This document shows, piece by piece, positions 1,129-20,063 of a stretch of DNA of 64,000 bases (position 1 is its first letter; each line of letters starts with the position of its first letter). The stretch spans positions 1 to 64,000 of the forward strand of contig NZ_SLZL01000020.1 in the NCBI RefSeq assembly GCF_004342605.1, in the 5' to 3' direction. This stretch comes from Caulobacter sp. BK020 (GTDB lineage Bacteria > Pseudomonadota > Alphaproteobacteria > Caulobacterales > Caulobacteraceae). The notes beneath the pieces are model-generated. The model had not been told where the DNA came from and ran no database searches. It worked only from the letters and a program-made list of their open reading frames with translations. The translations under genes and the position numbers were made by a program.

Positions 1129-1517
1129 GTGGAGCTTCCTTCCTCGGTGCGAGCGGCCTTGGCGGCGGCGAGTTCGATCGCCTGCAGGCGGGCGCGCTCG
1201 AAGATCGCCCCCATCCGCCAGTGTTGATTGGTGCGGTTCGCCGCGTGCTCGCCCCAGCCGTGGTCGCGCCGGAAGGCGCCCAGCTGGCCGGACGCCAGGG
1301 CCTGCTGCGCGGTCACGCCCGCGACCCGCTCGGTCTCGGGCCAGACGAACAGGGCGTCGGCCGGGCAGTAGAGCTCGCACAGCAGGCAGGTCTGGCAGTC
1401 GGCCTGGGCGGCGATCACCGCCTTGCCCCCCTCCCCCAGCGCCAGCACGTCGCTGGGACAGGCTTCGACGCAATCGCCGCAGCCCGAGCAGCGGTCCTCG
1501 ATGACGACCTCGATCAT
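1125..1517 (-). CDS. 2x[4Fe-4S] ferredoxin-type subunit (AprB-like)
   Basis: A 130-residue protein with two complete cluster motifs: CxxCxxCxxxCP at C10, C13, C16, C20 and again at C41, C44, C47, C51. The roughly 70-residue tail (GWGEHAANRTNQHWRMG) has no motif I recognise. The start at 1517 overlaps the flavoprotein stop by one base (TGATG), so the two are almost certainly made together. The pairing of a fumarate-reductase-type flavoprotein with a small bacterioferredoxin resembles the alpha and beta subunits of dissimilatory APS reductase. In sulfonate-utilisation loci of aerobes such pairs are expected to serve sulfur assimilation. The electron-transfer role is well supported; the substrate is not. 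Confidence 0.85.
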   Translation of the reverse strand: MIEVVIEDRCSGCGDCVEACPSDVLALGEGGKAVIAAQADCQTCLLCELYCPADALFVWPETERVAGVTAQQALASGQLGAFRRDHGWGEHAANRTNQHWRMGAIFERARLQAIELAAAKAARTEEGSST

Positions 1518-4038: not shown

Positions 4039-4049
4039 CCCGCCCTCCC

Positions 4050-6719
4050 TCAGAACTGCTGGGTCAGGCGGGCGTAGTAGTAGCCGCCGGTGATGCCGAA
4101 GGGCGAGAAGATGCCGAACTGGCCCGTGCCCAGGTCGGCGTTGACGATTCCGATCTTGTCGGGATGCTTGTCGAACAGGTTGTTGGCCCCGATGGCGACG
4201 TTGGTGGACGGACGGACCTGCCAGGCGATGTCCAGGTCGGTGACCCACTTGGGGCTGAACGTCCGGTCCAGGCTGGCCGACGTGCCGGCCTCGGTGTAGC
4301 GGCCATAGCGGGTGTTGCGCAGGCTGGCGCTCCAGTCGCCCAGCGACCACTGGGCGCCGACGATGATCTTCTCGCGCGGGGTGCCGATCGTCAGGTCGGC
4401 GATCTTCTGGCGGTCGAACAGGACCAGGTTAGGATTGACCGCCGTCAGGACTGCTGGCGTGGCCTTCAGCTTGGTGACCTTGGTCTTGTTAAAGGTGTAG
4501 GCGGCGTTCAGGTTCAGACGCCCGAACTCGCCCAGGCTGAAGCCGTACTCGCCGACGAAGTCCAAGCCCGTCGTCCGGGTGGAAACCGCGTTGGTGTAGT
4601 AGGTCGCCGTCAGCCCCTGCGGGAACCGTACCAGCAGCGGCGCCAGGTCCGCGCGCGACGACAGCTGCGCCACCGACAGGTCGAGATTGCTGGTGTCGAC
4701 GATGCGGTCGTCGATCTGGATCTCGTAGGCGTCCAGGGTCAGGCGCAGGCCGGCGAGCGGCTCGGCGGTGACCCCGAAGCTGTAATTGGTCGAGGTTTCC
4801 GGCTTGAGCGTCTCCGCGCCCAGCGCTTTCGCCTCAGCGCTGTCGGTGCGCAGCACCTTGGTTGGGAAGGTCAGGTACTCGCCGGCTGCGCAGGGCGCGC
4901 CCCGGAAGATGTTGTTGGGCGCGGCCGGGCACAAGCTGCCGTTGATGGTCGAGGTGGCGAACAACACCTGGCCCAGCGATGGGGCGCGGAAGCCGTTGCT
5001 GACCGTGGCCCGCACGGCGTAGCCCGGCAGGAACTCCCAGCGCGTGGTCAGCTTGCCGCTGAAGGTGTCGCCCACTCCTTTGCCGTATTTCTCGTACCGG
5101 CCGGCCAGGCCGACGTACCAGCCGTCGGTGACGTTGGTCCCGACATCGACATAGGCCGCGCCGCTGTGGCGATGGGTCGAGCCGGCGTCTTCCGGCGCGG
5201 TGCCGGCATAGGAGGCCAGGCCTGGGTTCGGGCGCAGGCCGGCGAACGGCTGGCCGGCCGGGATCGCGTAGTCGCCGACGACGTAGGAGGCCGCGTCCCC
5301 CGCCTCGATCAGGAAACGCTCGTAGCGATGCTCCAGTCCCCAGGAGACCTGCAGCGGATGCGGCAGCCAGCCCGGCGTCACCTCGCGGGTGACGTCCAGA
5401 TTGTTGGTCCACTGCCGGAACTCGTGGGTCGACAGGTGGAAGTAGGTCGGACTGGACGGGCCCAGCGTGGCGTTCAGGGTGTTCTGGCCGTCCAGCTGGG
5501 CGTGGTCCTGGGCCAGGGTCGTCGACAGGTCCCACGCCCAGCCGGCCTTCTCGCCGCGCGCGCCGAAGCTGGTCTGGAAGTCCAGCTCGAAGATCCTGCG
5601 CTGGGCGTTGAAGCCGTTCGGATAGACCTCGGGCAGCGAATTTCGGTTCAGCGGCCGCCCCGCCGTGACGCCGGCGACGGGCGCCAGGTTGGGCAAGAAG
5701 CTGCCGGTGACCTTCCGCGACGAGCGGTGGCTGAGCGTGCCCGACGAATAGAGCTTTAGATCTCGCCAGGGCAGTTCGGCGTTGTACGAGGCCGCCAGGA
5801 TGTCCTCCTCGCCCGGCCCGTAGCTCTGCCCCCAGAAGTAACGGTCGGCGGTCGCGTCGCGTGGGTCGGGCGTCACCGTGGTCACGCCGCCCACACTCGT
5901 GACGGTCGGTTGATAGATGTATTGCGCACGCGAGGGCACGGCGCGGCTGGCCGCCTCGTTGTTCTTCCAGTTCAGGGCCAAGCTGAGGAAGCCGCCATTC
6001 TCGCCCAGCGGCCGACCCCAGTTGAGCGTGGCGGCGCGGGTGTCGCCGTCGCCCAGATAGTTCTGGCCGCCGGTGTAGCTGAACGAACCGCCTTCGGAAT
6101 CGTCCTTCAGGATGATGTTGACCACGCCGGCGATGGCGTCGGAGCCATACTGGGCCGAGGCTCCGTCGCGCAGCACCTCGATCCGCTCGATCGCCGAGGC
6201 CGGGATGAGGTCGAGGTCGACCGGCGCCCCGCCCCGGCCGACGCGGGCCAGGTTGTTGATCAGGGCGGTGCCGTGTCGGCGCTTGCCGTTGACCAGGAAC
6301 AGGGCCTGATCGCCGTTCAGGCCGCGCAGGGTGATGGCCCGCACTGTCCACGAGGTGCCGCCACCGTTGACGCCCGGCAGGTTGAACGACGGGATCAGGG
6401 TGTTGAGCACCTCCTTCAGGCCCACCTTGCCGGTGGCCAGCAGTTGCTCGCCGCTGATCACATCGACGGGCGCGGGGCTGTCGGCGACGGTGCGGCGCAC
6501 ACCCCGCACGCCGGTGACGATGACGCTGTCGAGCGCCGTCACGCCTTCGTCGGCGGTCGGCGCCGGCGTCGTTTCGGCCGCATGAACGGCGCCGCTGCTC
6601 AACGCCAGCACCGAGGCGCAGGTCAGCAGCGTCAACTGGAAGCTCAGCTTGAAAGGATTCAGTCGGACCGCGGTCCGCGCTGGAAGCAAGGTCAAAGGTC
6701 TACCCCCGCGCTCGGTCAC
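4050..6719 (-). CDS. TonB-dependent outer-membrane receptor (sulfur island, first)
   Basis: Up to 889 residues. A signal peptide ends near AVHA/AETT (about residue 48). It is followed by a TonB box-like segment (SVIVTGVRGVRRTV), a plug domain (PVDVISGEQLL through IERIEVLRDGASAQYGSDAIAGVVNI) and a 22-strand-type barrel ending in the aromatic ARLTQQF needed for outer-membrane assembly. The GTG at 6719 lacks a good ribosome site; a TTG at 6695 sits six bases after GGGGG and may be the real start. It lies 11 bases upstream of the binding-lipoprotein gene on the same strand, so it most likely imports the same ligand into the periplasm. The ligand is not identifiable from sequence; an organosulfur compound is inferred from context. 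Confidence 0.88.
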   Translation of the reverse strand: MTERGGRPLTLLPARTAVRLNPFKLSFQLTLLTCASVLALSSGAVHAAETTPAPTADEGVTALDSVIVTGVRGVRRTVADSPAPVDVISGEQLLATGKVGLKEVLNTLIPSFNLPGVNGGGTSWTVRAITLRGLNGDQALFLVNGKRRHGTALINNLARVGRGGAPVDLDLIPASAIERIEVLRDGASAQYGSDAIAGVVNIILKDDSEGGSFSYTGGQNYLGDGDTRAATLNWGRPLGENGGFLSLALNWKNNEAASRAVPSRAQYIYQPTVTSVGGVTTVTPDPRDATADRYFWGQSYGPGEEDILAASYNAELPWRDLKLYSSGTLSHRSSRKVTGSFLPNLAPVAGVTAGRPLNRNSLPEVYPNGFNAQRRIFELDFQTSFGARGEKAGWAWDLSTTLAQDHAQLDGQNTLNATLGPSSPTYFHLSTHEFRQWTNNLDVTREVTPGWLPHPLQVSWGLEHRYERFLIEAGDAASYVVGDYAIPAGQPFAGLRPNPGLASYAGTAPEDAGSTHRHSGAAYVDVGTNVTDGWYVGLAGRYEKYGKGVGDTFSGKLTTRWEFLPGYAVRATVSNGFRAPSLGQVLFATSTINGSLCPAAPNNIFRGAPCAAGEYLTFPTKVLRTDSAEAKALGAETLKPETSTNYSFGVTAEPLAGLRLTLDAYEIQIDDRIVDTSNLDLSVAQLSSRADLAPLLVRFPQGLTATYYTNAVSTRTTGLDFVGEYGFSLGEFGRLNLNAAYTFNKTKVTKLKATPAVLTAVNPNLVLFDRQKIADLTIGTPREKIIVGAQWSLGDWSASLRNTRYGRYTEAGTSASLDRTFSPKWVTDLDIAWQVRPSTNVAIGANNLFDKHPDKIGIVNADLGTGQFGIFSPFGITGGYYYARLTQQF

Positions 6720-6960: not shown

Positions 6961-8316
6961 ATGCCCCCTAGACCAGCACCTGTCATCGCCGTGGTGGGCG
7001 CGGGGTTCAGCGGGGTGACGACGGCCCTGAACATCCTCAAGCGCTCGGCCGACGCCAAGGTGATCCTGTTCGAGCGGCGTTCGCCTGTCGGCCTTGGGGC
7101 GGCCTACGCTTCACACAATCCGGGTCATCGCCTGAACGTGCGGGCAGGCAACATGAGCGCCTGGCCGGACGATCCCGAACACTTCGTCAGATGGCTGAGC
7201 CGTGAGCGGTTCGCCCTCGGCCCGGCGGACTTCGCCACGCGCGCGGACTATGGTCGCTATATCCAGCAGCAGGTCGTCGAGATCGTCGAAAGGGCCGCCG
7301 GCGCCGCCCGCCTGGTGGTCGCGCCAGACGCGGTGATCGGGATCGAGCCAGGCGGCGACGGCTGGCGGCTGCGGTGCGCCATGGGACGGGCGGTCACGGC
7401 CCATGCCGTCGTCCTGGCCCTGGGCAATCCGCCGCCGGCGCGACCGCCGGGGATCGACGAGACCTTCGCCGCCTCGGAGGCCTATGTCGCCGATCCCTGG
7501 CGTTGGAACGCGACCGATCTGCCGGCGGGGCCGGTTTTGCTGATCGGCACGGGCCTGACCATGGTCGACGTGGCGCTGTCGCTGAACGACGCGCAACCGG
7601 GCCGCCCCATGCTGGCGTTGTCGCGGCGCGGCCTGGCGCCGCTGGAGCACGACGGCGCGCCGCCGCTGATCCTCCCGACGCCGCCGGCCAACGATCTGTC
7701 GCCGCTGGAGGCGTTCGGCTGGCTGCGCGCCGCCGCCGCCGACCACGGCTGGCGTACCGCGATCGACGCCATTCGGCCGGCGACCCAGGCCTTGTGGCGC
7801 GGCTGGTCGACAGCGCAGAAACAGGCCTTCCTGCGTCACGCCCGTCCGTTCTGGGACATCCACCGCCACCGCCTGGCCCCGCTGGTCGCCCGCAGGATCG
7901 GCGCCCTGCGCGGCACTGGCCAACTGGTCCTGGCGGCCGGCAAAATCCGCAGCCTGAAGCTCGAAGCCGACGGCTTCGCCCTGTGCCGCTGGCGCGGGCG
8001 GGGTCAGGAGACGGGCTACGCCTTCCGCGCGGCCAGGGTCATCAACTGCACCGGTCCGACCGGGGACGTACTGACCTCGTCCGATCCGTTGATCCAGGAC
8101 CTGGTTCAGCGCGGCCTGGCCCGGCCCGATCCGTTGCGCCTTGGCTTCGATGTCGACGACGACAACCGCGTGCGCGACGTCTCCGGCCAAGCCTCGCCGA
8201 CTCTGCTGGCCGTCGGCCCGGCGACGCGCGGAACCTCGTGGGAGATCACCGCCGTGCCGGACATCCGCATCCAGGCCGCCGCCGTGGCCGAGGGGGTGCT
8301 CGCGGCGCTAGCCTAG
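6961..8316 (+). CDS. FAD/NAD(P)-binding oxidoreductase (COG4529-like)
   Basis: A 451-residue protein with an N-terminal FAD-binding fold (VIAVVGAGFSGVTTALNIL), the GLGAAYASHNPGHRLNVRAGNMS block typical of the FAD_NAD_binding_9 family, and a second dinucleotide motif (VLLIGTGLTMVDVALSL near residue 195). A C-terminal block (VINCTGPTGDVLTSSDPLI through LLAVGPATRGTSWEITAVPDIR) is also family-typical. Members act as NAD(P)H-dependent flavoproteins of unknown substrate. It is divergent from the TonB receptor, and its stop overlaps the stop of the convergent lysR gene (8313-8316). A role in processing the imported sulfur compound is an inference from location only. Confidence 0.75.
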   Translation: MPPRPAPVIAVVGAGFSGVTTALNILKRSADAKVILFERRSPVGLGAAYASHNPGHRLNVRAGNMSAWPDDPEHFVRWLSRERFALGPADFATRADYGRYIQQQVVEIVERAAGAARLVVAPDAVIGIEPGGDGWRLRCAMGRAVTAHAVVLALGNPPPARPPGIDETFAASEAYVADPWRWNATDLPAGPVLLIGTGLTMVDVALSLNDAQPGRPMLALSRRGLAPLEHDGAPPLILPTPPANDLSPLEAFGWLRAAAADHGWRTAIDAIRPATQALWRGWSTAQKQAFLRHARPFWDIHRHRLAPLVARRIGALRGTGQLVLAAGKIRSLKLEADGFALCRWRGRGQETGYAFRAARVINCTGPTGDVLTSSDPLIQDLVQRGLARPDPLRLGFDVDDDNRVRDVSGQASPTLLAVGPATRGTSWEITAVPDIRIQAAAVAEGVLAALA

Positions 8317-9149
8317 AGGTCCAACGCCGCGGCATGGATCAACTGCCCCAGCTTGACGATGGACGCGTGCGGGGTGTCGTTGATCCGCTGGACATAGGCC
8401 ACGTCAGGCAGCGACGGCAGATGGTTGCTGGCCAGCGGCGCGCGCTCGGGCAGGAACAGGGCGGTGCGGCAGGTGACCGCCAGGCCCGCCTGCACCGCGG
8501 CGCGCAGGGCCGAGAGGCTCGGCGTTTCCAGGGCCACCCGGAACGGCCGCCCGTCCCGCTCCAGCGCGGCCAGGGCGGCGTCGCGAAAACGGCAGGGCGA
8601 TTCCAGGATGGCGACCGGCAGGACATCGCTCTCGGCCAGGGCGGCGTCGCCATGCCACGCCATCGGGACCACGCGCGCGGCGCGCGGATCGTCCGCCGCG
8701 CCCATGCACAGGACCACGTCCAGCCGATCGGCCTCCAGCAGGCTCAGCAGTTCCGGCGATCCCGCCACCCGCACCTGCAGCTGAGTGTCGGGATTGAGTT
8801 GGGCGAACCGCGCCAGTACGCCCGACAGCAGGGTCTCGGCGAAGTCCTGCACGAGGCCGACGCGCGCCGGCCCGGCCAGGGCGTCACCGGTCAGGGCCAC
8901 GACGGCGCGGTCGTTCAGCGCCAGGATCTCCCGCGCCCTCGGCAGCAGGGTCTGGCCCGCCGGCGTCAGGACCAGGCGCCGCCCCTCGCGATGGAACAGC
9001 GGCGTCAGCACCGTCTCCTCCAGGCGCTTCATCTGCAGGCTCAGCGCCGACTGGGTGACGAACACCCGCTCGGTCGCCCGCAGCATCGAACCGGAGTCGA
9101 CGATCGCCACGAAACTCCGCAGCAGTTCGGTCGGCAGGTTGGTCACCAT
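8313..9149 (-). CDS. LysR-family transcriptional regulator
   Basis: A 278-residue regulator. Residues 5-65 are a winged helix-turn-helix (ELLRSFVAIVDSGSMLRATE, then FVTQSALSLQMKRLEE, then PLFHREGRRLVLTPAG), followed by a LysR substrate-binding domain (ARVGLVQDFAETLLSGVLARF, LEADRLDVVLCMGAAD, GLAVTCRTALFLP). It is divergent from the ABC permease operon at 9279, across 129 bases holding a CTAT-N7-ATAG dyad. This is the standard arrangement in which a LysR protein controls the neighbouring operon and itself. It is therefore the obvious candidate regulator of the sulfur island, perhaps sensing a sulfur metabolite as CysB and Cbl do. The effector is not known. Confidence 0.9.
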   Translation of the reverse strand: MVTNLPTELLRSFVAIVDSGSMLRATERVFVTQSALSLQMKRLEETVLTPLFHREGRRLVLTPAGQTLLPRAREILALNDRAVVALTGDALAGPARVGLVQDFAETLLSGVLARFAQLNPDTQLQVRVAGSPELLSLLEADRLDVVLCMGAADDPRAARVVPMAWHGDAALAESDVLPVAILESPCRFRDAALAALERDGRPFRVALETPSLSALRAAVQAGLAVTCRTALFLPERAPLASNHLPSLPDVAYVQRINDTPHASIVKLGQLIHAAALDL

Positions 9150-9278: not shown

Positions 9279-10088
9279 GTGTCTCTGGCGACGACCTACA
9301 GAAATTCTGAAACTTGGCCGTGGCGCTGGCCCAGTCTGGCCCGGGCGCGCTGGCTGTCTCCCCTCTTGTTGCTGGCCTTGTGGGAGCTGGGCGCACGCAC
9401 GGGCGTGATCCCGCCGCGTGTGCTGGCCGCACCGTCCACCGTGCTGGAGACTTTCTGGGACCTGACCGTCTCTGGCGAGCTGCCTCGTAACCTCCTGGTC
9501 TCGCTGGCCCGCGCCGGTGCGGGGCTCGGCGTCGCCCTGGTCCTGGCCACCACCTTGGGCTTGATCTCGGGCCTGTCGCGTTGGGGCGAGACGCTGGTCG
9601 ACCCGCTGATGCAGATCAAGCGGACCATTCCGGTCCTGGCCCTGACGCCGCTGTTCATCGTCTGGTTCGGCATCGGCGAGACGCCGAAGATCCTGCTGAT
9701 CACCGTCTCGGCGACCTTTCCGCTGTACCTGAACCTGTTCGCCGGCATCCGCGGCGTCGACGTACGCCTGGTCGAGGCCGCCCGCAGCTTCGGCCTCAGC
9801 GGCTGGAGCCTGGTGCGCGAGGTGATCCTACCCGGCGCCCTGCCCTCGTTCTTCGTCGGCCTGCGCTACGCCCTGGGCGTGGCGGTGCTGGTGCTAGTGA
9901 TCTCCGAGCAGATCAACGCCCAGGCCGGGCTCGGCTACCTGGTCAACAACGCCCGCGACTTCATGCGGACCGACATCATCGTCGTCTGCCTGGTCGTCTA
10001 CGCCCTGCTCGGCCTCGGCGCCGACGCTCTCGTCCGCACGCTGGAGCGCAAGGCGCTGGCGTGGCGCCCCAGCCTCGTGGAGCAATGA
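9279..10088 (+). CDS. ABC transporter permease, sulfonate/nitrate/taurine family (SsuC-like)
   Basis: A 269-residue inner-membrane permease with about six hydrophobic segments and the BPD family coupling loop (VRLVEAARSFGLSGWSLVREVILPGALPSFFVGLRYALG). I chose GTG 9279 because a purine-rich GAGAGAGGG precedes it at normal spacing; an in-frame TTG at 9243 would add 12 residues and has no better site. The stop overlaps the ATPase start (ATGA). It works with the ATPase at 10085 and with one or both binding lipoproteins (3100, 13865). The family as a whole carries sulfonates, taurine, nitrate or pyrimidine precursors; sulfonate-like cargo is inferred from the monooxygenase and flavin reductase downstream. 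Confidence 0.9.
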   Translation: MSLATTYRNSETWPWRWPSLARARWLSPLLLLALWELGARTGVIPPRVLAAPSTVLETFWDLTVSGELPRNLLVSLARAGAGLGVALVLATTLGLISGLSRWGETLVDPLMQIKRTIPVLALTPLFIVWFGIGETPKILLITVSATFPLYLNLFAGIRGVDVRLVEAARSFGLSGWSLVREVILPGALPSFFVGLRYALGVAVLVLVISEQINAQAGLGYLVNNARDFMRTDIIVVCLVVYALLGLGADALVRTLERKALAWRPSLVEQ

Positions 10089-10900
10089 TCATGGCCGTAT
10101 CGCAACCGCGCCTCCCCCGTCCCGTCGTCACCCGCCCGCCTCAGCAGGCCGCCGAACCCGCCGTGCGGCTCTCGAACTTCGTCCGCCGCTTCGGCGACAA
10201 CACCGTCATCGACGGCCTGAACCTGTCGATCGCCCCGGGCGAGTTCGTCGCCCTGCTGGGCGCCAGCGGTTCGGGCAAGACCACACTGCTGCGCACCCTG
10301 GCCGGCCTCGATCCTGCCGGGGGGCAGGATGTGAAGACCCCCGACGCGAGGGCGGTCGTGTTCCAGGATGCGCGCCTGCTGCCGTGGAAGAAGGTCTGGC
10401 GCAATGTCGCGCTGGGCCTCTCCGGTAGCGACGTCCGGGCTCGCGCCGAGGCGGCGCTGAAGGAGGTGGGCCTTGGCCATCGCCTCGACGCGTGGCCCGG
10501 CACCCTCTCGGGCGGCGAGGCTCAGCGCACGGCCCTGGCCCGGGCCCTGGTCCGCGAGCCGGGCCTGCTGCTGCTGGACGAACCGTTCGCGGCGCTGGAC
10601 GCCCTGACCCGCCTGAAGATGCACGAGCTGGTGCTCTCGCTGTGGCGCGAGCACGCGCCGGCCGTCCTGCTGGTCACCCACGACGTCGACGAAGCCATCG
10701 CCCTGGCCGACCGGGTGCTGGTGCTGGACAAGGGCCGCATCGCCGCCGAGGAGCGCATCACCCTGGAGCGCCCGCGCGCGGCCGACGTCCGCTTCCAGGC
10801 CATTCGGCGACGGCTGCTGGGTCATCTCGGCGTCGAGGCCGCGCCGGTCCATGGCGAAGGCCATCTGGTCGCCTTCCCGACCGGCGAGGTCGTGCTGTGA
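10085..10900 (+). CDS. ABC transporter ATP-binding protein (SsuB-like)
   Basis: A 271-residue ATPase with Walker A LLGASGSGKTTLLRTLAG, Q-loop VVFQDARLLPWKKVWRNVALG, signature LSGGEAQRTALARALVREP, Walker B LLLLDEPFAALDALT and switch histidine LLVTHDVDEAI. The Q-loop DARLLPW form is characteristic of nitrate/sulfonate/taurine importers. It starts at ATG 10085 inside the permease stop (a second ATG lies at 10091), and its stop overlaps the GTG of the next gene. This chain of overlaps implies one co-translated message. Confidence 0.93.
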   Translation: MIMAVSQPRLPRPVVTRPPQQAAEPAVRLSNFVRRFGDNTVIDGLNLSIAPGEFVALLGASGSGKTTLLRTLAGLDPAGGQDVKTPDARAVVFQDARLLPWKKVWRNVALGLSGSDVRARAEAALKEVGLGHRLDAWPGTLSGGEAQRTALARALVREPGLLLLDEPFAALDALTRLKMHELVLSLWREHAPAVLLVTHDVDEAIALADRVLVLDKGRIAAEERITLERPRAADVRFQAIRRRLLGHLGVEAAPVHGEGHLVAFPTGEVVL

Positions 10901-12063
10901 ACGCCCCCCTGCGTCGCTTCCAAGCCGGGGCTCGCCTTCCTGATCTCGACACGATCCTGCCCCGCCTGACCCAGGCCTTCGCCGAGACCGCCGCCCTGCA
11001 CGACCGCGAGGCCAGTTTTCCGACCGACAACTTCCGGCGACTGCACGAGGCGGGCTTGCTGGCCCTGACGGCGCCGGCCCGCCTGGGCGGCCTCGAAGCC
11101 GACCTGCCGACAGCGCTGAAGGTGGTCTCGGCCGTCGCGCGCGGCGAGCCGGCGACGGCGCTTGTCCTGGTCATGCAGTACCTGTTCCACGCCTCGGTCG
11201 AAGGCCGTTCCGGCTGGCCCGAACATCTCAGGGCCCGGGTCATCGGCGAGGCGATCCAGCAGGGCGCGCTGATCAACGCCCTGCGGGTCGAGCCGGACCT
11301 CGGCACCCCCGCCCGCGGCGGCCTGCCCGCCACCATCGCCCGCCGCACGCCCGAAGGCTGGCGGATCAGCGGTCGCAAGATCTACTCCACCGGTTCGACC
11401 AACCTGACCTGGTTCGTGGTCTGGGCCCGCAGCGACGACGCTGACCCGCTGGTCGGTGGCTGGCTGGTCCGGGCCGACACGCCCGGCATTTCGATCGAGG
11501 AGACCTGGGACCACCTGGGCCTGCGCGCGTCGGCCAGCCATGACGTGGTGTTCGAAGACGTGCTGGTCCCGCTGGACCACGCTTTGGATCCCCAGCCCGT
11601 CGGCGCGCCGCCGCCCTATCCGGCCACCTTCGCCACCTGGTCGGCGGTGCTGACCTCGGCCATCTATGACGCTGTCGCCCGCGCGGCGCGGGACTGGCTG
11701 GTGCAGTTCCTGGCCAACCGCAAGCCGGCCAACTTGGGCGCGGCCCTGTCGACCCTGCCCCGCTTCCAGGAGGCCGTCGGCGAGATCGACGGCCTGCTGC
11801 TGTCCAACCGCATCCTGCTGGACACCGCCGCGCGCGGCGAGGTCGACGGTGTCGAGGCCAGCCTCGTCAAGCACCTGGTCACCGAGAACGCCATCGCCGC
11901 CGTCGAAAAGGCCCTGAAATTGACCGGCAATCCGGGCCTGACCCGCGCCAATCCACTGGAGCGTCACCATCGGGACGTCCTGTGCGGCCGGGTCCACACG
12001 CCGCAGGCCGACGTGGTGCTGACCAGCGCCGGCCGCGCCGCCTTCGCGGGACTGGCCGCATGA
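10897..12063 (+). CDS. Acyl-CoA-dehydrogenase-like flavoprotein (SfnB/DszC-type candidate)
   Basis: A 388-residue member of the acyl-CoA dehydrogenase superfamily. The N-terminal helical domain has FPTDNFRRLHEAGLLALTAPARLGG. The middle beta domain contains GWRISGRKIYSTGSTNLTWFVVWAR and GISIEETWDHLGLRASASHDVVFEDVLVP, and the C-terminal helical domain ends LTRANPLERHHRDVLCGRVHTPQADVVL, typical of the type-2 domain of DszC/SfnB/HpaB-like monooxygenases rather than true fatty-acyl enzymes. It starts at GTG 10897, overlapping the ATPase stop. In sulfur loci these proteins use reduced flavin from a separate reductase (compare 21162) to oxidise a sulfur atom; here that is inferred from context. Confidence 0.8.
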   Translation: MNAPLRRFQAGARLPDLDTILPRLTQAFAETAALHDREASFPTDNFRRLHEAGLLALTAPARLGGLEADLPTALKVVSAVARGEPATALVLVMQYLFHASVEGRSGWPEHLRARVIGEAIQQGALINALRVEPDLGTPARGGLPATIARRTPEGWRISGRKIYSTGSTNLTWFVVWARSDDADPLVGGWLVRADTPGISIEETWDHLGLRASASHDVVFEDVLVPLDHALDPQPVGAPPPYPATFATWSAVLTSAIYDAVARAARDWLVQFLANRKPANLGAALSTLPRFQEAVGEIDGLLLSNRILLDTAARGEVDGVEASLVKHLVTENAIAAVEKALKLTGNPGLTRANPLERHHRDVLCGRVHTPQADVVLTSAGRAAFAGLAA

Positions 12064-13010
12064 GCCGCCTCATCGTCGCCAGCCAGCTGCCCGAGGTGTT
12101 CAACAGCGTCTTCGCCCAGCATGTCGCCGACGCCGAGATCGTCGCCGTGCCGCCGGGCTTGACCACGCCTCTGCCGCCGCAGGCCAAGGTCCTGGTCGCC
12201 GCGCCGTTCCGCAAGGCGGGCGGGGTCCTGCCCGATCGTCCGCCGCCCGGTTGGCCCTTCGACGTGCGCTGGGTGCAACTGGTTTCGGTCGGCATCGACT
12301 TCTATCCGGACTGGCTGTTCGACGGACCGGTCGTGACCTCGGCGCGCGGCTCGTCCGCCGTGGCCCTGGCCGAATTCGCCCTGGCCGCCATCCTGGCCGA
12401 GGCCAAGCGCCTGCCGGACATCTGGATCGACGCCGCCAGCCGGTGGGCCCCGCAGCAGCTGAAGCTGGTCGCCGGCTCGACCCTGGGCCTGGTCGGCTTC
12501 GGCGCCATCGGCGAGGCCCTGGCCCCGCGGGCCCAGGCCCTGGGGATCAACGTCCTGGCGGTGCGCCGCTCGGACGCCACGATCCCGGTCCCTGGCGTCG
12601 AGCGCGTGGCCGACCTCAAGACCCTGTTCGAACGCAGCGACCATGTCGTGCTGGCCGCGCCCGCGACGCCGCAGACCGAGCGGATCATCAATCGCGACCT
12701 CCTGCTGCACGCCAAGCCGGGTCTGCACCTGATCAACATCGCCCGCGGCGCCCTGATCGACGACGAGGCCTTGCTGGCGGCGCTGGACGAAGGCCGCGTC
12801 GGCCGCGCCAGCCTGGACGTCACCTTTCCTGAGCCCCTGCCGGACGGCCATCCGTTCTACGCCCACCCCAAGGTTCGCCTGTCGCCGCACACCTCGGTGC
12901 ACACGCCCGACACCCGCCTCAACCTGGCGACCCAGTTCGCCGAGAACCTGGCCCGCTTCCGGTCCGGCGCGCCCCTGGCCGGCGTTGTCGACCTGTCGCG
13001 CGGCTACTGA
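12060..13010 (+). CDS. D-isomer-specific 2-hydroxyacid dehydrogenase
   Basis: A 316-residue NAD(P)-dependent dehydrogenase. The Rossmann motif is STLGLVGFGAIGEALA near residue 140. The catalytic Arg is in LINIARGALIDDEALL, the Glu in VTFPEPLPDGHPFY, and the His in VRLSPHTSVHTP, giving the R-E-H triad of the family. It interconverts a 2-hydroxyacid and a 2-oxoacid, or more loosely a glyoxylate or hydroxypyruvate-like compound. The ATG overlaps the previous stop (ATGA). Its presence with a class II aldolase inside an ABC transporter operon suggests that the carbon backbone of the imported sulfur compound is also processed. The substrate is unknown. Confidence 0.85.
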   Translation: MSRLIVASQLPEVFNSVFAQHVADAEIVAVPPGLTTPLPPQAKVLVAAPFRKAGGVLPDRPPPGWPFDVRWVQLVSVGIDFYPDWLFDGPVVTSARGSSAVALAEFALAAILAEAKRLPDIWIDAASRWAPQQLKLVAGSTLGLVGFGAIGEALAPRAQALGINVLAVRRSDATIPVPGVERVADLKTLFERSDHVVLAAPATPQTERIINRDLLLHAKPGLHLINIARGALIDDEALLAALDEGRVGRASLDVTFPEPLPDGHPFYAHPKVRLSPHTSVHTPDTRLNLATQFAENLARFRSGAPLAGVVDLSRGY

Positions 13011-13022
13011 GAGATCACCGCC

Positions 13023-13865
13023 ATGACCGCCTTCCCCTCGGCGCGGGGCTTCACGCCCGCCGCGCCGCATCCCGCCAAGATCGAGACCGTCCTGCCCGAA
13101 TTCGGGACCCGCGAGATCCCGCGGCAGCCGACGGTCGAGGCCGAGCGCCTCTATCGCAAGCAACGCCTGGCCGCCTCGTATCGCCTGTTCGGCCGCTACG
13201 GCTTCGATATGGGCGGGGCCGGCCATATTACCGCCCGTGACCCGGAACTGACCGACCATTTCTGGGTCAATCCGTTCGGCGTTCACTTCAGCCGCATCAA
13301 GGTCTCGGACCTGATGCTGGTCAGCCATGACGGCCGCATCGTCGAGCCGCCGGCCAAGGTTCCTGCCCGCCTGAACCGCGCCGCCTTCGCCATCCATTCG
13401 CAGTTGCACGAGGCCCGGCTCGACGTGGTCGCCGCCGCCCACTCGCACTCGCTGTACGGCAAGGCCTGGTCGGCCCTGGGGCGTCTGCTCGATCCGCTGA
13501 CCCAGGACTCGGCGGCGTTCTATGACGACCACGCCCTGTTCGAGGAATTCTCGGGGGTCGTGCTCGACACCAGCGAGGGCCAGAAGATCGCCCGGGCGCT
13601 GGGCGCGAAGAAAGCGGTGATCCTGCAGAACCACGGCATCCTGACCGTGGGTCAGTCGGTCGAGGCCGCCGTCTGGCGCTACCTGGCCCTGGAGAACGCC
13701 TGCCAGACCCAGCTTCTGGCCGAGGCCGCGGGTCCGACCAAGCCGATGCCGCCCGAAGTGGCCAGGCATACCGCCAGCCAGGTGGGCGGCGAAGCTGGCG
13801 GCCTCTGGGCCTTCCAACCCTATTGGGACGTCGTCACCGAGGAAGAACCGGACCTGTTCGACTGA
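13023..13865 (+). CDS. Class II aldolase/adducin-family protein
   Basis: A 280-residue protein with the full class II aldolase head domain. It has FGRYGFDMGGAGHITARDP and FWVNPFGVHFSRIKVSDLMLV (backbone and phosphate-loop region), the zinc-site AAHSHS, and the third zinc histidine in VILQNHGILTVG. Members cleave or decarboxylate sugar phosphates or small oxoacids, or act as adducin-like proteins. It lies 12 bases after the dehydrogenase and overlaps the next gene by one base (TGATG). With the dehydrogenase it could remove a C2 or C3 unit from a sulfur-bearing acid. That is inference; a binding-only role cannot be excluded. Confidence 0.85.
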   Translation: MTAFPSARGFTPAAPHPAKIETVLPEFGTREIPRQPTVEAERLYRKQRLAASYRLFGRYGFDMGGAGHITARDPELTDHFWVNPFGVHFSRIKVSDLMLVSHDGRIVEPPAKVPARLNRAAFAIHSQLHEARLDVVAAAHSHSLYGKAWSALGRLLDPLTQDSAAFYDDHALFEEFSGVVLDTSEGQKIARALGAKKAVILQNHGILTVGQSVEAAVWRYLALENACQTQLLAEAAGPTKPMPPEVARHTASQVGGEAGGLWAFQPYWDVVTEEEPDLFD

Positions 13866-14845
13866 TGACCGGTTTCTCGATGTCCAGGCGCGCCCTGATG
13901 GTCGGTGGTCTGTCGATCGCCGGCCTCGCCGCCTGCTCGCCCAAGCCTGGCGCCAAGACAGGCTCGCCGGAACTGACCCTCCGGGTGGCCACCTACCGCG
14001 GCAATCCCGAGAGCTTCTTTACCGAGGCCGGGATCGCAGAACCGCCCTACAAGCTGGCTCGCACCCAGTTCGCGGGCGGCAACCTGATCACCGAAGCGAT
14101 CAACGCCCGGGCGCTCGACTTCGGCGGCATGAGCGAGATCCCGCCGATCTTCGTGGCCGGGCATCCGGGCAACCAGGTCCGTATCGTCGGCGTGCTGCAA
14201 GGCGACGTGAACAACCAGGTCGTGCTCGTACCCAAGGGCTCGCCGGCCCAGGACTTCAAGGCGCTGAGAGGCAAGCGCGTCGGCTATGTGAAGGCCACGA
14301 CCTCGCACTACATCCTGCTACGGCTGCTGGAGAAGGCCGGCCTGACCTGGGCCGACATCACCCCGGTGGCGTTGTCGCCGCAGGACGGCCTGGCCGCGTT
14401 CCAGAGCGGAGCGCTGGACGCCTGGGTGATCTACGGCGTCATCGTCTACCAGGCCCGCGAGGCTGGAGCGCGGGTGCTGACCACGGCGCAGGGGATCCTG
14501 TCAGGCAACTACCTTATCGCCGCCGCCGCCGAAGCGCTCGACGATCCCGAGCGGCTGAAGGCCATCGGCGACTACGTCCGGCGCTATCGCCAGGTGTTTG
14601 ACTGGATCAACGCCGACGGCGTCCGCTGGGCCAGGGTCCGCGCCGCCGCCACCGGGGTCAAGCAGGCCTATTACGAGCAGGAATTCCGCGAGCGGAGCAC
14701 GCCCTCGATCCTGGGCCCGATCAACGAGGCGGCGATCACCTCCCAGCAGGCTGTGGCCGACACCTTCGCCGCCGCAAAGGTCATACCGAGCGCCGTTCAG
14801 GTCAAGCCGTTGTGGGATGACCGGCTAACACCGCTCCTGAAGTGA
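13865..14845 (+). CDS. Second sulfonate/taurine-type ABC substrate-binding lipoprotein
   Basis: A 326-residue SsuA-like protein. The N-terminus has a short signal (MSRRALMVGGLSIAGLAACS) with lipobox AGLAAC. The body has the family blocks LITEAINARALDFGGMSEIPPIF, LRGKRVGYVKATTSHYILLRLLEKAGL, and LAAFQSGALDAWVIYGVIVY. An ATG at 13865 overlaps the aldolase stop; an in-frame ATG at 13880 opens the signal peptide directly. It resembles the protein at 3100 in plan but differs clearly in sequence, so the two may present different ligands to one permease. Confidence 0.88.
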   Translation: MTGFSMSRRALMVGGLSIAGLAACSPKPGAKTGSPELTLRVATYRGNPESFFTEAGIAEPPYKLARTQFAGGNLITEAINARALDFGGMSEIPPIFVAGHPGNQVRIVGVLQGDVNNQVVLVPKGSPAQDFKALRGKRVGYVKATTSHYILLRLLEKAGLTWADITPVALSPQDGLAAFQSGALDAWVIYGVIVYQAREAGARVLTTAQGILSGNYLIAAAAEALDDPERLKAIGDYVRRYRQVFDWINADGVRWARVRAAATGVKQAYYEQEFRERSTPSILGPINEAAITSQQAVADTFAAAKVIPSAVQVKPLWDDRLTPLLK

Positions 14846-14976
14846 GTTTTGCATCGTAAATATAGAACTATAGTATTTTTGATATGAGTAAATCTATCGA
14901 TTTCGAGATTTTATATTCGTTGGGAAAAGATCGCGCAGATGACAAATCCCGACAAGATAATTCGGGGATAGATCGA

Positions 14977-17151
14977 ATGCCTAAGTTTCGCTTGCGACAT
15001 CTTTTGCTCTTGAGTTCCAGCGTTGCGGTAGCCGGCGCGGCCCAGGCGGCCGAACCGGCGTCCAGCGCCGATGGCGCCGCGCCCGCGGTCGAGCAGGTGA
15101 TCGTCACCGCCGAGCGACGCGCCACCGACCTGCAGAAGACCGCCATCGCCATCTCGGCCTTCGGCCAGCAGGTCCTGGCCGACCGCAAGATCGACAACAT
15201 CCGCGACCTGTCGGGCCAGATCCCCAACCTCAGCATCAGCCGGGTCACGATCAGCCACACCACCCAGACCTACGCCCTGCGCGGCGTCGGCGAGGCTGAT
15301 CCGATCCAGGAACCGGTGCTGGCCGTCTATGTCGACGACGTCTACATCCCGCGCCAGATCGGCTCGATGGTCGAGTTCAACGACCTGGAGCGCATCGAGG
15401 TGCTGCGCGGCCCGCAAGGTACGCTGTACGGCCGCAACTCCAGCGCCGGCGCCCTGCGGATCATTATCCGGGACCCGGGCCAGAAGCTGCGCGCCAAGGC
15501 GGAAGTCGGGCTGGGAAACTATGGCGCGGTCGATGTCCGCGCGCTGATCGAGGGGCCCCTGGTCGCCGACAAGCTGTCGGGCAGCCTGTCGTACATCCAT
15601 CACGAGCGCGACGGCGTCACCTTCGACCCGACATTGAACCATGACGTCAACCGCATCGACCTGGACGCCCTCCGCGCCAAGCTGCGCTGGACGCCGACCG
15701 AACGCCTGGACGCCCAGCTGACCCTCAACGCCCTGCGCGACCGCAGCGACACGCGCAGCTACGTCCCGGTGAACCAGCCGGGCGGGACCTTCCGCAACGA
15801 TCGCTCCTATTCCGAGGTCGAGCCCGTTCAGGATCTGGACCAGATCAGCGGCTCGCTGCGGGTCCAGTACGAGCTTTCCGAGCACCTGAAGCTGAAGTCG
15901 ATTACCGCCTATGGCGGCTTCAACCTCAATCCCGTCGCCTATGACAACGACGGCCAGGCGGCGCTGATCCAGAAGAACCTGATCCACTACAACGACCAGT
16001 ACGCCACCCAGGAAGTCCAGCTGAACGGCGACTTCGGCGACGTCACCTTCACCAGCGGCCTGTTCTATCTGCACGAGCGGTTCTTCGTGCAGCGCGACGG
16101 CTACAGCCGCCGCAACGCCCAGAACACCGATCCGGTGACCACGCCCGGCAACTACGGCTTCGCCCGGGCCCACAACATCACAAACACCGACGCCTATGCC
16201 GTGTTCGGCGAAGCGACCTGGAAGGCGACCGACCGCCTCTCCCTGACCGGCGGCTTGCGCTGGACCAACGAGGAGAAGGACTTCGTCTTCGACAACAAGG
16301 TGCTGAACCTGTCCGGCCAGGTGGTCGGCCAGTCGATCGTCGGTCAGGCCGACAAGACCTTCTCGGCGATCACGCCCAAGGTCTCGGTCCAGTATCAGTG
16401 GACCGACGAGGTCCTGCAGTACGCGACCTGGTCGAAGGGCTTCAAGTCGGGCGGTTTCGACAACCGCGCCACACGGCTGGATCTGGCCACTCGCCCCTTC
16501 GCCCCCGAGAACGTCGACAGCTACGAAACAGGCCTGAAGACGGAGCTGTTCGACCGCCGGGCGCGGCTGAACCTGGCGGCTTTCTACAACGACTACAAGG
16601 ACCTGCAGGTCAGCTATAGCGACCCGGCCTATCCGGGTAATTCGATCCGCGGCAACGCCGGCAAGGCCCATACCTACGGCGTCGAGCTGGAGAGCGACGT
16701 GCGCGCGACCGAGCGGCTCGGGCTGCAAGCTTCCGTCGGTTATCTGTTCGCCGTCTACGACAAGTACCGCAACGCTGGCGGGGTGGGCGTCAACGCCGAC
16801 GGTCATCGCCTGTTGAACTCGCCGCGCTGGAGCCTTTCTGGCGGGTTGACCTACGACGTGCCGATCGAGATTCCGGGCTCCGTGCGCCTGGGCCTGAACG
16901 CCCAATGGCAGGGCAAGGCCCATTTCAATGCGCTGCAACGTCCGCAGGACGAGGCGCCGGCCCAGGGCTTCCTGAACGGCTCGATCACCTGGAACACGCC
17001 CGATCCGCGCTGGGCCGTACAGCTTTCGGGCCGCAATCTGCTCGATTCCGACAAGCCGGTCAGCGCCACCTACACGCCGTCCACGGGGGTCTACTATCGC
17101 AACTACCCCGACCCGCGAACCTTCCTCCTCACCCTCAAATACGCGCTGTGA
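14977..17151 (+). CDS. TonB-dependent outer-membrane receptor (sulfur island, second)
   Basis: A 724-residue receptor. The start ATG 14977 follows GGGG at nine bases and opens a clean signal peptide (PKFRLRHLLLLSSSVAVAGA, cleaved near AQA). A further 31 codons upstream to 14884 are AT-rich and look like promoter DNA. The plug contains EQVIVTAERRATDLQ and YVDDVYIPRQIGSMVEFNDL, then ERIEVLRGPQGTLYGRNSSAG. The barrel ends in TFLLTLKYAL with a less typical terminal leucine. It is followed after four bases by the thiol dioxygenase gene, tying outer-membrane uptake to thiol oxidation. Confidence 0.88.
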   Translation: MPKFRLRHLLLLSSSVAVAGAAQAAEPASSADGAAPAVEQVIVTAERRATDLQKTAIAISAFGQQVLADRKIDNIRDLSGQIPNLSISRVTISHTTQTYALRGVGEADPIQEPVLAVYVDDVYIPRQIGSMVEFNDLERIEVLRGPQGTLYGRNSSAGALRIIIRDPGQKLRAKAEVGLGNYGAVDVRALIEGPLVADKLSGSLSYIHHERDGVTFDPTLNHDVNRIDLDALRAKLRWTPTERLDAQLTLNALRDRSDTRSYVPVNQPGGTFRNDRSYSEVEPVQDLDQISGSLRVQYELSEHLKLKSITAYGGFNLNPVAYDNDGQAALIQKNLIHYNDQYATQEVQLNGDFGDVTFTSGLFYLHERFFVQRDGYSRRNAQNTDPVTTPGNYGFARAHNITNTDAYAVFGEATWKATDRLSLTGGLRWTNEEKDFVFDNKVLNLSGQVVGQSIVGQADKTFSAITPKVSVQYQWTDEVLQYATWSKGFKSGGFDNRATRLDLATRPFAPENVDSYETGLKTELFDRRARLNLAAFYNDYKDLQVSYSDPAYPGNSIRGNAGKAHTYGVELESDVRATERLGLQASVGYLFAVYDKYRNAGGVGVNADGHRLLNSPRWSLSGGLTYDVPIEIPGSVRLGLNAQWQGKAHFNALQRPQDEAPAQGFLNGSITWNTPDPRWAVQLSGRNLLDSDKPVSATYTPSTGVYYRNYPDPRTFLLTLKYAL

Positions 17152-17155
17152 CCCG

Positions 17156-17758
17156 ATGAGCCAGCACCACCTCTCCGACTTCGTGGCCGACTTTTCCAAC
17201 CTGCTGGACCAGACCGGCGACGAAGCCGTGATCCTGCGAGAAGGCGGCGCCCTGCTGGCGCAGCTGGTCGCCGCGGACGACTGGCTGCCCGAAGCCCAGA
17301 GCCGGCCGGATCCCGTGCGCTACCAGCAGTACCTGCTGCATCGCGATCCGGCCGGCCGCTTCTCGGTCGTCAGCTTCGTCTGGGGACCGGGTCAAGCGAC
17401 CCCGGTTCACGACCATACTGTCTGGGGTCTGGTCGGCGTCTTGCGAGGGGCTGAACTGTCGCAACCTTACGAGCGGCGCGGCGACTCCCTGGCCGCGTCA
17501 GGCCAGGTTCATCGCCTGGAGGCCGGCCAGGTCGAAGCTGTCTCGCCGACGATCGGCGACATCCACCGCGTCGCCAACGCCTTCGAAGACCAGGTCTCGA
17601 TCAGCATCCACGTCTACGGCGCGGACATCGGGGCGGTGCGGCGCTCGACCTACGGCGCCGACGGCCGGCCCAAACCCTTCGTGTCCGGCTACGCCGACGT
17701 CCCGCCGCCCCTCCTGTTCGACCGCGCCAGCGCCCTGGCCTACGGAGCCGCCGAATGA
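17156..17758 (+). CDS. Thiol dioxygenase-like cupin (cysteine/3-mercaptopropionate dioxygenase family)
   Basis: A 200-residue cupin. The iron-binding pair is H85 and H87 in FVWGPGQATPVHDHTVWGLV, and the third ligand is H137 in TIGDIHRVAN. This is the 3-His site of type I cysteine dioxygenases. The RYQQYLLHRD segment supplies the arginine expected to hold a carboxylate. These enzymes insert O2 at a thiol to give a sulfinate, with no cofactor besides Fe(II). The next gene, a rhodanese array, overlaps by four bases, so a sulfinate or sulfane sulfur relay is suggested. Which thiol is used (cysteine, mercaptopropionate or another mercaptoacid) cannot be read from the sequence. Confidence 0.85.
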   Translation: MSQHHLSDFVADFSNLLDQTGDEAVILREGGALLAQLVAADDWLPEAQSRPDPVRYQQYLLHRDPAGRFSVVSFVWGPGQATPVHDHTVWGLVGVLRGAELSQPYERRGDSLAASGQVHRLEAGQVEAVSPTIGDIHRVANAFEDQVSISIHVYGADIGAVRRSTYGADGRPKPFVSGYADVPPPLLFDRASALAYGAAE

Positions 17759-19332
17759 CCCTGTCTGTCGTCAAGCCTCAAGAGGTCCGCCGCGACCTGA
17801 TCGCCCGACGCGAGATCGCCCTGCTGGACCTGCGCGAGGAAGACCCGTTCGCCAAGAGCCACCCGCTGTTCGCCTCGCAACTGCCGCTGAGCCGGCTGGA
17901 GGTCGAAATCCTCGACCGAGTCCCGCGCCTTGACGCCAAGATCGTCCTCTATGACGACGGCGAGGGCTTGGTCGCGCCGGCGGCCGAGCGGCTGGCGGCC
18001 CTGGGCTATACGAACGTTCACGCGCTGGCCGGCGGCGTCGCCGGCTGGCGCGCCGCCGGCTACGAGCTGTTCCAGGACGTCAATTCCTATAGCAAGGCGT
18101 TCGGCGAACTGGTCGAGGCGCGCCGCCACACTCCGTCCCTGCCGGCCCAGGAGGTCCAGGCCCGGATCGACGCCCGGGCCGACCAGGTGATCCTCGACGC
18201 CCGCCGATTCGAGGAATACGCGGTCATGAACATTCCCGGCGGGATCAGCACGCCGGGCGCCGAGCTGGTGCTGCGCGCCCGCGAACTGGCGCCCGATCCT
18301 TCGACCACGATCATCGTCAACTGCGCCGGCCGCACCCGCAGCCTGATCGGCGCCCAGTCGCTGGTGAACGCCGGCCTGCCCAACCCCGTCTTCGCCCTGC
18401 GCAACGGCACGATCGGCTGGACCCTGGCCCAGCAGACTCTGGAACATGGCCAGGGCCGCAAGTTTCCCGAGGTTCGTGAGCAGACCCTGGTCGAGGCTCG
18501 CACGCGCGCCCGCGACGTCGCCTATCGCGCCGGCGTCCGTCGCCTGGACCCGGCGGGCCTGACCGACCTCGGCAAGGACGGCGATCGCACGCTCTACCGC
18601 TTCGACGTCCGCACGCCCGAGGAGTATGCGGCGGGCCACATCCCCGGCTTCCGCTCAGCCCCTGGCGGCCAGCTGGTGCAGGAGACCGACGTTTTCGCCC
18701 CGGTTCGCGGCGGCCGCATCGTGCTGGCCGACGATCTAGGGCCTCGCGCCGACATGACCGCCTCGTGGCTGGCCCAGCTGGGCTGGGAGGTCTACGTGCT
18801 GGACGGCGGTTTCAAGGGCGGGCTGGAGATCGGAGCCTGGGTCCCTCGCCTGCCCGTCCTTCCGGCGGTCGAGGCCCTGTCGCCCGACGATCTGGCTCAG
18901 GCCATCGCCGACGAGACCGTGGTGGTGATCGACCTCGCTCCCAGCCCGCGCCATCGCAAGGGTCACGTGCCCGGCGCCTGGTTCGCCATCCGCGCCCAGT
19001 TGCCCGAGGCGCTGGACAGGCTGCCGAAAGACAAGGCCTTCGTCCTGACCTCGACGGACGGTGTCCTGGCCGCCCTGGCGGCGCCAGAACTGGAGAACCT
19101 GACCGATCGCTCCGTCCGCGTCCTGGCCGGTGGGACCGAGGCCTGGATCGCCGCCGGCCGCGCCGTCGAAGGCGGTCTGACCCACGCCGCCAACGCCCCG
19201 ACCGACATCTACAAGCGTCCCTACGAGGGCACCGACAACGCCGCCGAGGCCATGCAGGCCTATCTCGATTGGGAGTTCGGCCTGGTCGATCAATTGGCGC
19301 GCGACGGCACGCACGGCTTCTACGTGATCTGA
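17755..19332 (+). CDS. Four-domain rhodanese-like sulfurtransferase
   Basis: A 525-residue protein made of four rhodanese-like domains, roughly residues 1-110, 130-245, 255-375 and 380-490. Each ends in a typical block (ALAGGVAGWRAAG, FALRNGTIGWTLA, YVLDGGFKGG, VLAGGTEAWIAAG). Only domain 2 keeps an active-site cysteine, C190 in IIVNCAGRTRSLIG; the equivalent loops of the others read VLYDDGEG, VLADDLGP and VLTSTDGV. So one catalytic and three structural or binding domains are expected. It overlaps the dioxygenase gene (ATGA) and precedes a GST by three bases. Rhodaneses move sulfane sulfur; with a thiol dioxygenase this resembles sulfide or persulfide handling, as inference. Confidence 0.85.
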   Translation: MTLSVVKPQEVRRDLIARREIALLDLREEDPFAKSHPLFASQLPLSRLEVEILDRVPRLDAKIVLYDDGEGLVAPAAERLAALGYTNVHALAGGVAGWRAAGYELFQDVNSYSKAFGELVEARRHTPSLPAQEVQARIDARADQVILDARRFEEYAVMNIPGGISTPGAELVLRARELAPDPSTTIIVNCAGRTRSLIGAQSLVNAGLPNPVFALRNGTIGWTLAQQTLEHGQGRKFPEVREQTLVEARTRARDVAYRAGVRRLDPAGLTDLGKDGDRTLYRFDVRTPEEYAAGHIPGFRSAPGGQLVQETDVFAPVRGGRIVLADDLGPRADMTASWLAQLGWEVYVLDGGFKGGLEIGAWVPRLPVLPAVEALSPDDLAQAIADETVVVIDLAPSPRHRKGHVPGAWFAIRAQLPEALDRLPKDKAFVLTSTDGVLAALAAPELENLTDRSVRVLAGGTEAWIAAGRAVEGGLTHAANAPTDIYKRPYEGTDNAAEAMQAYLDWEFGLVDQLARDGTHGFYVI

Positions 19333-19974: not shown

Positions 19975-20063
19975 TGAGCCGCCCGCATAACGCGCTTGAA
20001 AACTCCTCGCTCATCGCCGGGCGAGGTCGTCCCTAGGATCGTCCACCTAAATTGGAGCCCGCC

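Follow-up and report, generated by a model that had tools for sequence, protein, structure and literature searches.

The ssu operon (SsuEADCB) combines an SsuA/B/C transporter with the monooxygenase SsuD and a flavin reductase, and SsuD-type enzymes yield aldehydes. Another sulfur system, known from Pseudomonas aeruginosa, pairs a 3-mercaptopropionate dioxygenase (PA2602 type) with a multi-domain rhodanese. Here we describe an operon related to both, found in a stretch of 64,000 nucleotides from Caulobacter sp. BK020 (contig NZ_SLZL01000020.1, positions 1 to 64,000; hereafter the window). It has in common with ssu the SsuA/B/C-like transporter, the SsuD-like monooxygenase and the flavin reductase, and its dioxygenase and rhodanese genes closely match the PA2602 type. 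Beyond ssu, it carries the thiol dioxygenase, the rhodanese, a glutathione S-transferase-like gene and a five-gene cassette, which encodes a flavin oxidase-like protein (OX), a D-2-hydroxyacid dehydrogenase (DH), a class II aldolase-fold protein (ALD), a binding lipoprotein (SBP2) and a TonB-dependent receptor (TonB2). We know of no OX-DH-ALD cassette in a PA2602-type dioxygenase/rhodanese setting, and we found no description of the trio or the cassette in the titles and abstract openings of the literature searched, in which subscription journals are mostly uncovered.

All the parts belong to known families; what is new is a plug-in substrate module with a NovR/TqaM-like enzyme in an ssu-like organosulfur operon. 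Iron oxygenases of the NovR/TqaM type are familiar from natural-product biosynthesis, NovR/CloR from that of antibiotics and TqaM from that of fungal amino acids, whereas ALD, whose activity is predicted, stands in a bacterial sulfur operon beside a D-2-hydroxyacid dehydrogenase. A vague "aldolase in a sulfur operon" becomes a testable module, namely a receptor, a binding protein and three enzymes beside a fixed desulfuration core. This module is present, absent or placed together in relatives from Caulobacter, Phenylobacterium, Sphingomonas and Azospirillum, and reshuffled in Pseudomonas and Betaproteobacteria. It predicts a candidate organosulfur compound in soil and water and, for the class II aldolase-fold proteins now labelled aldolases by annotation pipelines, a function; it also hints at an undescribed route for sulfur release from organic compounds.

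Organization of the operon

An earlier note on this DNA had placed an oxidase-like, a dehydrogenase and an aldolase-fold gene at 10897-13865, between SsuB and a second SsuA-like lipoprotein, and both the coordinates and the packing proved exact. OX starts with GTG and overlaps SsuB by 4 bases, DH overlaps OX by 4 bases, and ALD follows after a gap of 12 bases and overlaps by 1 base with SBP2, whose lipobox is LAAC. The genes downstream of SBP2 lie on the same strand. The features are as follows.

8313-9149, minus strand: LysR-type regulator, divergent from the operon (PF03466/PF00126); kept upstream of SsuC
9279-10088, plus strand: SsuC-like permease, core module A (NCBIfam SsuC 253.8 bits, equivalog cut-off 347 missed; scanned from 9270)
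10085-10900, plus strand: SsuB-like ATPase, core module A (NCBIfam SsuB 240.9 bits, equivalog cut-off 395 missed)
10897-12063, plus strand: OX, flavin monooxygenase-like, acyl-CoA dehydrogenase superfamily, cassette B (nearest structure 5z8t; dehydrogenase Glu replaced by Thr/Ser)
12060-13010, plus strand: DH, D-2-hydroxyacid dehydrogenase by family, cassette B (PF02826; R229, E258, H277)
13023-13865, plus strand: ALD, NovR/TqaM-like probable non-heme iron oxygenase/decarboxylase, cassette B (nearest structure NovR; H140, H142, H204)
13865-14845, plus strand: SBP2, SsuA/NMT1-like binding lipoprotein, cassette B (PF09084; SsuA_fam 130 bits, cut-off 163.5 missed)
14884-17151, plus strand: TonB2, TonB-dependent outer-membrane receptor, cassette B (PF00593, PF07715); accompanies the cassette in the genus
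17156-17758, plus strand: thiol dioxygenase of the 3-mercaptopropionate dioxygenase type, core module A (close matches to the structures 4qma, E 1e-72, 6xb9, and 3uss/4tlf, E 9e-71)
17755-19332, plus strand: four-domain rhodanese, core module A (four PF00581 stretches)
19336-19974, plus strand: glutathione S-transferase-like protein, core module A (PF02798, 4gf0)
20052-21158 (alternative ATG 20064), plus strand: SsuD-like flavin monooxygenase, core module A (PF00296; SsuD 240.2 bits, equivalog cut-off 518.2 missed; nearest solved protein 7jv3, E 3.5e-62, which is listed as an alkanesulfonate monooxygenase)
21162-21677, plus strand: flavin reductase, core module A (PF01613)

With the same SsuA_fam model, the divergent binding protein SBP1 (3100-4065) scores 220 bits.

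A five-gene cassette and a sulfur core in the genus

In the window's genus the unit is not just the trio but the whole row OX-DH-ALD-SBP2-TonB2, about 6.3 kb, which extends to 17151 between SsuB and the dioxygenase gene. Among 37 genomes of the genus, the window's own counted, orthologs of OX, DH and ALD are found in 15, 15 and 14, respectively. These are the same genomes except for one assembly, G018 (85% complete), in which DH runs off the contig end and ALD was not found in the rest of the assembly. The co-occurrence of the three genes in the genus is not due to chance. SsuC orthologs are present in 16 of the 37 genomes, that is in all 15 cassette carriers and in 1 of the 22 non-carriers (Fisher p = 1.7e-9, not corrected for relatedness), and the dioxygenase in 17, which are the 16 SsuC genomes and G015 (56% identity).

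The sixteenth SsuC genome, G032, carries LysR, SsuC, SsuB, dioxygenase, rhodanese, glutathione S-transferase, SsuD and reductase genes in this order and lacks the cassette. Its DNA runs collinear with that of the window as far as 10896 and picks up again at 17165, the intervening stretch being absent; a genome-wide search of this 95%-complete assembly with OX, DH and ALD, SBP2 and TonB2 not being included, yielded neither an OX nor an ALD match (E 1e-60), nor a close DH. Since G032 is nested inside a clade of cassette carriers (tree support 0.999), loss of the block is the simplest reading. In G034 and G023, which are sisters in the tree (0.94), core and cassette lie at different places. The strain without the cassette and the strains with the cassette apart from the core are natural controls.

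A recent foreign origin of the cassette was also considered, and a compositional check gave no sign of it: its GC content is 0.678 versus 0.707 and 0.699 in flanking core genes, and the GC content at third codon positions of its genes is 0.87-0.93. At the cassette borders, the ends of SsuB and TonB2 (window 10890-10905 and 17140-17165) share the heptamer GCTGTGA, a possible microhomology at the junction.

The window's own genome holds a second, paralogous locus (L031, G000:C5:85001-105000) with genes for an NtaA/DmoA-type monooxygenase, an old yellow enzyme, a binding protein, OX (52%) and DH (43%), in which ALD is not beside DH; SsuB-like (81%) and glutathione S-transferase-like (79%) genes lie further on.

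ALD probably resembles NovR and TqaM in function

ALD matches PF00596 and NCBIfam PRK06208 (408.6 bits, cut-off 255), and its nearest solved proteins by sequence are 4xxf, which was deposited as an aldolase, NovR and TqaM. We compared the AlphaFold model of ALD (mean pLDDT 89.5, protein without iron) with solved structures. The best match is NovR (Z 36.5, root-mean-square deviation 1.6, 249 residues, 42% identity), and three TqaM structures, one of them solved with D-3-phenyllactic acid, score Z 33.7-35.2; pyruvic oxime dioxygenase reaches Z of about 29 and E. coli FucA about 22. NovR, CloR and TqaM are like ALD in fold, share 33-42% identity with it and have the three His.

The residue that we take to be catalytic in FucA, Glu73, corresponds to Ala in ALD when the two are aligned through a FucA-like protein of the same genome (L139) and 1dzx. 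The position is Ala or Gly in the other aldolase-fold sequences compared from DH loci, and the NovR alignment likewise has Ala there. On the other hand H140, H142, H204 and N118 are invariant in 25 sequences spanning both subfamilies (see below), and the three His align with those of NovR. With this Glu missing and with two iron oxygenases, NovR and TqaM, as its nearest characterised structures, ALD is more probably a NovR/TqaM-like non-heme iron oxygenase/decarboxylase than an aldolase, and the splitting of a carbon chain that had been proposed for it is not supported.

CloR/NovR is described as converting a 2-oxo acid to a 2-hydroxy acid and then to a shorter acid, with iron on three His (PMC13111500), and TqaM as oxidatively decarboxylating a 2R-hydroxy acid (PMC11880133). 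Given the likeness of ALD to these enzymes, DH and ALD would probably shorten an acid by one carbon, from the 2-oxo to the D-2-hydroxy form and then to the C(n-1) acid and CO2. A D-2-hydroxyacid dehydrogenase beside a NovR/TqaM-type enzyme would plausibly make chemical sense, as DH would set the 2-oxo/2R-hydroxy state and ALD would consume the product; the earlier suggestion that DH supplies the following enzyme with a 2-oxo or 2-hydroxy acid is also plausible.

OX is probably a flavin monooxygenase

OX belongs to the acyl-CoA dehydrogenase superfamily. Its best NCBIfam model is SfnB (TIGR04022) with 106.7 bits for a cut-off of 430.9, its second-best is 3-sulfinopropanoyl-CoA desulfinase with 97.8 bits for a cut-off of 600, and it scores 42.1 bits for a cut-off of 850 with DszC (NF043015). 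Filing OX as SfnB or DszC, the labels of the earlier note, was rejected, since both scores are far under the cut-offs. The predicted structure of OX (pLDDT 85.7) is nearest to 5z8t, titled flavin-containing monooxygenase (Z 43.7, 36% identity), and to 5gj7 (Z 41.3), followed within a few Z units by the 3-sulfinopropionyl-CoA desulfinase 5af7 (Z 39.2), acyl-CoA dehydrogenases and DszC. The methanesulfinate monooxygenase 6u76 matches OX at only E 8e-10.

Near the C-terminus, acyl-CoA dehydrogenases have an EGT motif which we take to carry their catalytic Glu. The OX sequences compared have Thr or Ser at this position, preceded by a His that is invariant in 27 sequences, while the Glu is present in 3 of 5 homologs from the same genome, the other two having no EGT motif. 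SfnB, DszC, MsuC and 5z8t-type monooxygenases show the same superfamily fold without the dehydrogenase Glu. Judging from this replaced Glu, OX is probably a flavin monooxygenase; its likeness to the flavin-dependent monooxygenases of group D is one of fold. As for DH, it matches PF02826 (E 2.8e-45), is placed in the glyoxylate/hydroxypyruvate reductase superfamily and is by family a D-2-hydroxyacid dehydrogenase; R229, E258 and H277, presumably the catalytic Arg-Glu-His, are invariant across eight sequences (alignment A1).

Conservation of the trio and its sulfur surroundings

We scanned named genomes with the DH alignment. The counts given here refer to the best 80 of 102 relatives, the 22 weaker matches lying outside them, and the neighbour counts rest on the gene calls of this analysis (codon-usage caller). 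OX lies just upstream of DH, or with one or two SsuD-like or related genes between them, in 70 of the 80 loci. The gene immediately after DH has the class II aldolase fold in 52 (33 with at least 50% identity to ALD and 19 with less); 51 loci have both. That the trio belongs together, as the earlier note supposed, is borne out by these figures. The exceptions for OX are L079, L087, L089, L092, L096, L101, L107, L112, L115 and L120, among which L107 and L112 have OX close by on the opposite strand. As a control, 33 other D-2-hydroxyacid dehydrogenase matches in 15 carrier genomes were inspected and none lies within 5 kb of OX, in a set that left out three DH paralogs (41-43%) of G000 and G002, two of them with OX adjoining.

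The window's order of core plus cassette recurs in a Niveispirillum and an Azospirillum (L075 and L076). In five Sphingomonas loci (L069, L072, L074, L077 and L118, the last without TonB2 next) core and cassette are divergent neighbours, and the Sphingobium/Novosphingobium type is mostly SBP2-OX-DH without adjacent ALD, L121 being an exception. Pseudomonas accounts for 18 of the 19 loci in which the aldolase-fold gene after DH is less than 50% identical to ALD. In L095, the only Pseudomonas case scanned, this gene belongs to subfamily PRK07044 and not PRK06208; other Pseudomonas loci have a similarly distant gene after DH, or none. Two loci have the downstream pair without OX: DH and ALD are adjacent in the distant relative L171, and a class II aldolase gene adjoins DH in L120, which fits DH-ALD as a two-step pair.

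Three further observations concern the cassette genes themselves. In L063, L067, L068, L070, L071, L081, L085, L086 and L091, OX and DH are separated by an additional SsuD-like monooxygenase gene (two in L086), perhaps an older component of the cassette. Beside a shortened OX gene, L123:7573-8685 contains several short inverted OX-like fragments, perhaps a decayed duplicate. At L079:9486-10000 the SsuB match is truncated and no OX precedes DH, as a deletion across SsuB-OX would leave it; cassette and core are otherwise complete, and the locus has no N.

Concerning the surroundings, a dioxygenase, rhodanese, SsuD, SsuC or SsuB at at least 45% identity lies within six genes of DH in 53 of the 80 loci, and the dioxygenase within the same distance in 41. 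When any SsuA-, SsuB- or luciferase-type match is counted the figure rises to 78, a loose figure that is not sulfur-specific. A link of the cassette to sulfur metabolism is supported, and by the strict count the sulfur setting proposed earlier is seen in the 53 loci and not in the other 27. The earlier note had also named two findings that would speak against its pathway: homologous ssu operons commonly without the trio, and the trio elsewhere always with non-sulfur genes. The former is partly true, as 14 of the 17 genomes of the class with the dioxygenase have no DH match (E 1e-60) and one core operon of the genus, that of G032, is without the block; the latter is false. In a distant genome (L177, G074:C1), the thiol dioxygenase reading frame contains one internal TGA.

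Proposed function and alternative explanations

We tentatively propose, with somewhat less than even confidence, that OX-DH-ALD is the enzymatic part of a cassette that equips an organosulfur-scavenging core for one further substrate. The data establish which genes are present, how they are packed and conserved together, that the block can be absent or stand apart, and which families, folds and catalytic residues are found; the reactions and their order, the direction of DH and the substrate are what we infer. TonB2 and SBP2 would catch an organosulfur compound, which the shared SsuBC transporter would import. OX would oxygenate it using reduced flavin, DH would interconvert the resulting 2-oxo acid and D-(R)-2-hydroxy acid, in the reductase or the oxidase direction, and ALD, as a NovR/TqaM-type enzyme and not an aldolase, would use O2 to decarboxylate the acid to one that is shorter by one carbon. 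The product, a thiol, sulfinate or sulfonate, would then be desulfurated by the core, that is by the dioxygenase, the rhodanese, the SsuD-like enzyme and the reductase. A 3-mercaptopropionate-type product would suit the neighbouring dioxygenase. A more precise version is unlikely: in this sulfur-scavenging pathway a sulfur-bearing D-2-hydroxy acid would lose one carbon through a NovR/TqaM-type iron oxygenase, and the genes would form a cassette for one substrate that is inserted into a shared desulfuration core. An example would be 4-thio-2-hydroxybutyrate giving 3-mercaptopropionate or its S-alkyl form, the kind of acid that suits the neighbouring dioxygenase.

Several observations weigh against this proposal. 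Core sulfur genes, by the strict count, were not found in the 27 loci mentioned, among which L051 and L054 are cassettes apart from their own core and many are Pseudomonas with dipeptide-type transporters replacing SsuBC. In 32 of the 72 loci with OX near DH, the dioxygenase is not within six genes. Among 385 genomes of the class, 9 have DH (at E up to 1e-60) and 17 have the dioxygenase (at E up to 1e-40); 3 genomes, the window's own among them, have both, where 0.4 would be expected (hypergeometric p = 0.005). These numbers argue against a close tie between DH and the dioxygenase. ALD is missing just downstream of DH in 28 of the 80 loci, so that it is not always needed; among the 28, L066, L081 and L084 are the only loci that end within 300 bases. 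Its replacement in L095 is nearest to 3ocr, of unknown function, and to adducin. All five cassette genes stand in a row in 25 of the 80 loci, 15 of them Caulobacter, and DH-ALD-SBP2 is without TonB2 next in L065, L068, L073, L078 and L118. PRK06208 is a broad family without curated function, and 4xxf, deposited as fuculose-1-phosphate aldolase, ties with NovR in the comparison with ALD (Z 36.2, 46% identity over the structural alignment). An earlier control, based on 15 dehydrogenase loci with neither OX nor ALD close by, is of little use since OX is absent from the genomes concerned, and the correlation of 0.935 between DH and OX trees (73 loci, no background set) carries little weight.

DH and ALD could instead act after desulfuration: the SsuD-like enzyme would free sulfite, and the leftover aldehyde or 2-oxo acid would be reduced by DH and decarboxylated by ALD, for carbon recovery or detoxification. 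The aldehyde products of SsuD-type enzymes, the superfamily of DH and the extra SsuD-like gene between OX and DH in nine loci (L063 to L091) agree with such a role, but the SsuD core has no DH or ALD beside it in G032 and in the core loci of G034 and G023, and the cassette's own receptor and binding protein fit a new substrate better; we consider this role unlikely too. A true retro-aldolase activity of ALD, with cleavage of the carbon chain in some hydroxylated sulfur compound, is improbable, since the Ala at the Glu73 position and the far higher Z scores with NovR and TqaM than with E. coli FucA oppose what the class II aldolase fold, its three metal His and the deposited name of 4xxf would suggest.

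If OX were a 3-sulfinopropionyl-CoA desulfinase-type enzyme that follows the thiol dioxygenase in the pathway, this would agree with its second-best NCBIfam match, with 5af7 as its third structure and with the 3-mercaptopropionate-type dioxygenase of the operon. However, its score is far under the cut-off of that model, 5af7 is level with many acyl-CoA dehydrogenases, the operon genes scanned include no CoA ligase or transferase, the dioxygenase is not within six genes in the 32 loci with OX cited above, and G032 has the dioxygenase without OX, which makes a desulfinase very improbable. The reading of OX-DH-ALD as the enzymes of a substrate cassette remains the one that we prefer.

Neighbouring genes

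On the minus strand, a divergent cluster at window 454-6719 comprises genes for a peroxiredoxin, a ferredoxin, a fumarate/adenylylsulfate (APS)-reductase-like flavoprotein, an SsuA-like lipoprotein and a TonB receptor. Flavoprotein and ferredoxin genes are again paired close to DH in L080, L082, L107, L112, L121 and L171. On the plus strand, 6961-8316 encodes an FAD/NAD(P)-binding protein (PF13454), which is possibly a further partner of the cassette; its homolog immediately precedes OX in the cassette of L039/L051, which stands apart from the core, and is found close to SBP2-OX-DH in several loci of sphingomonads.

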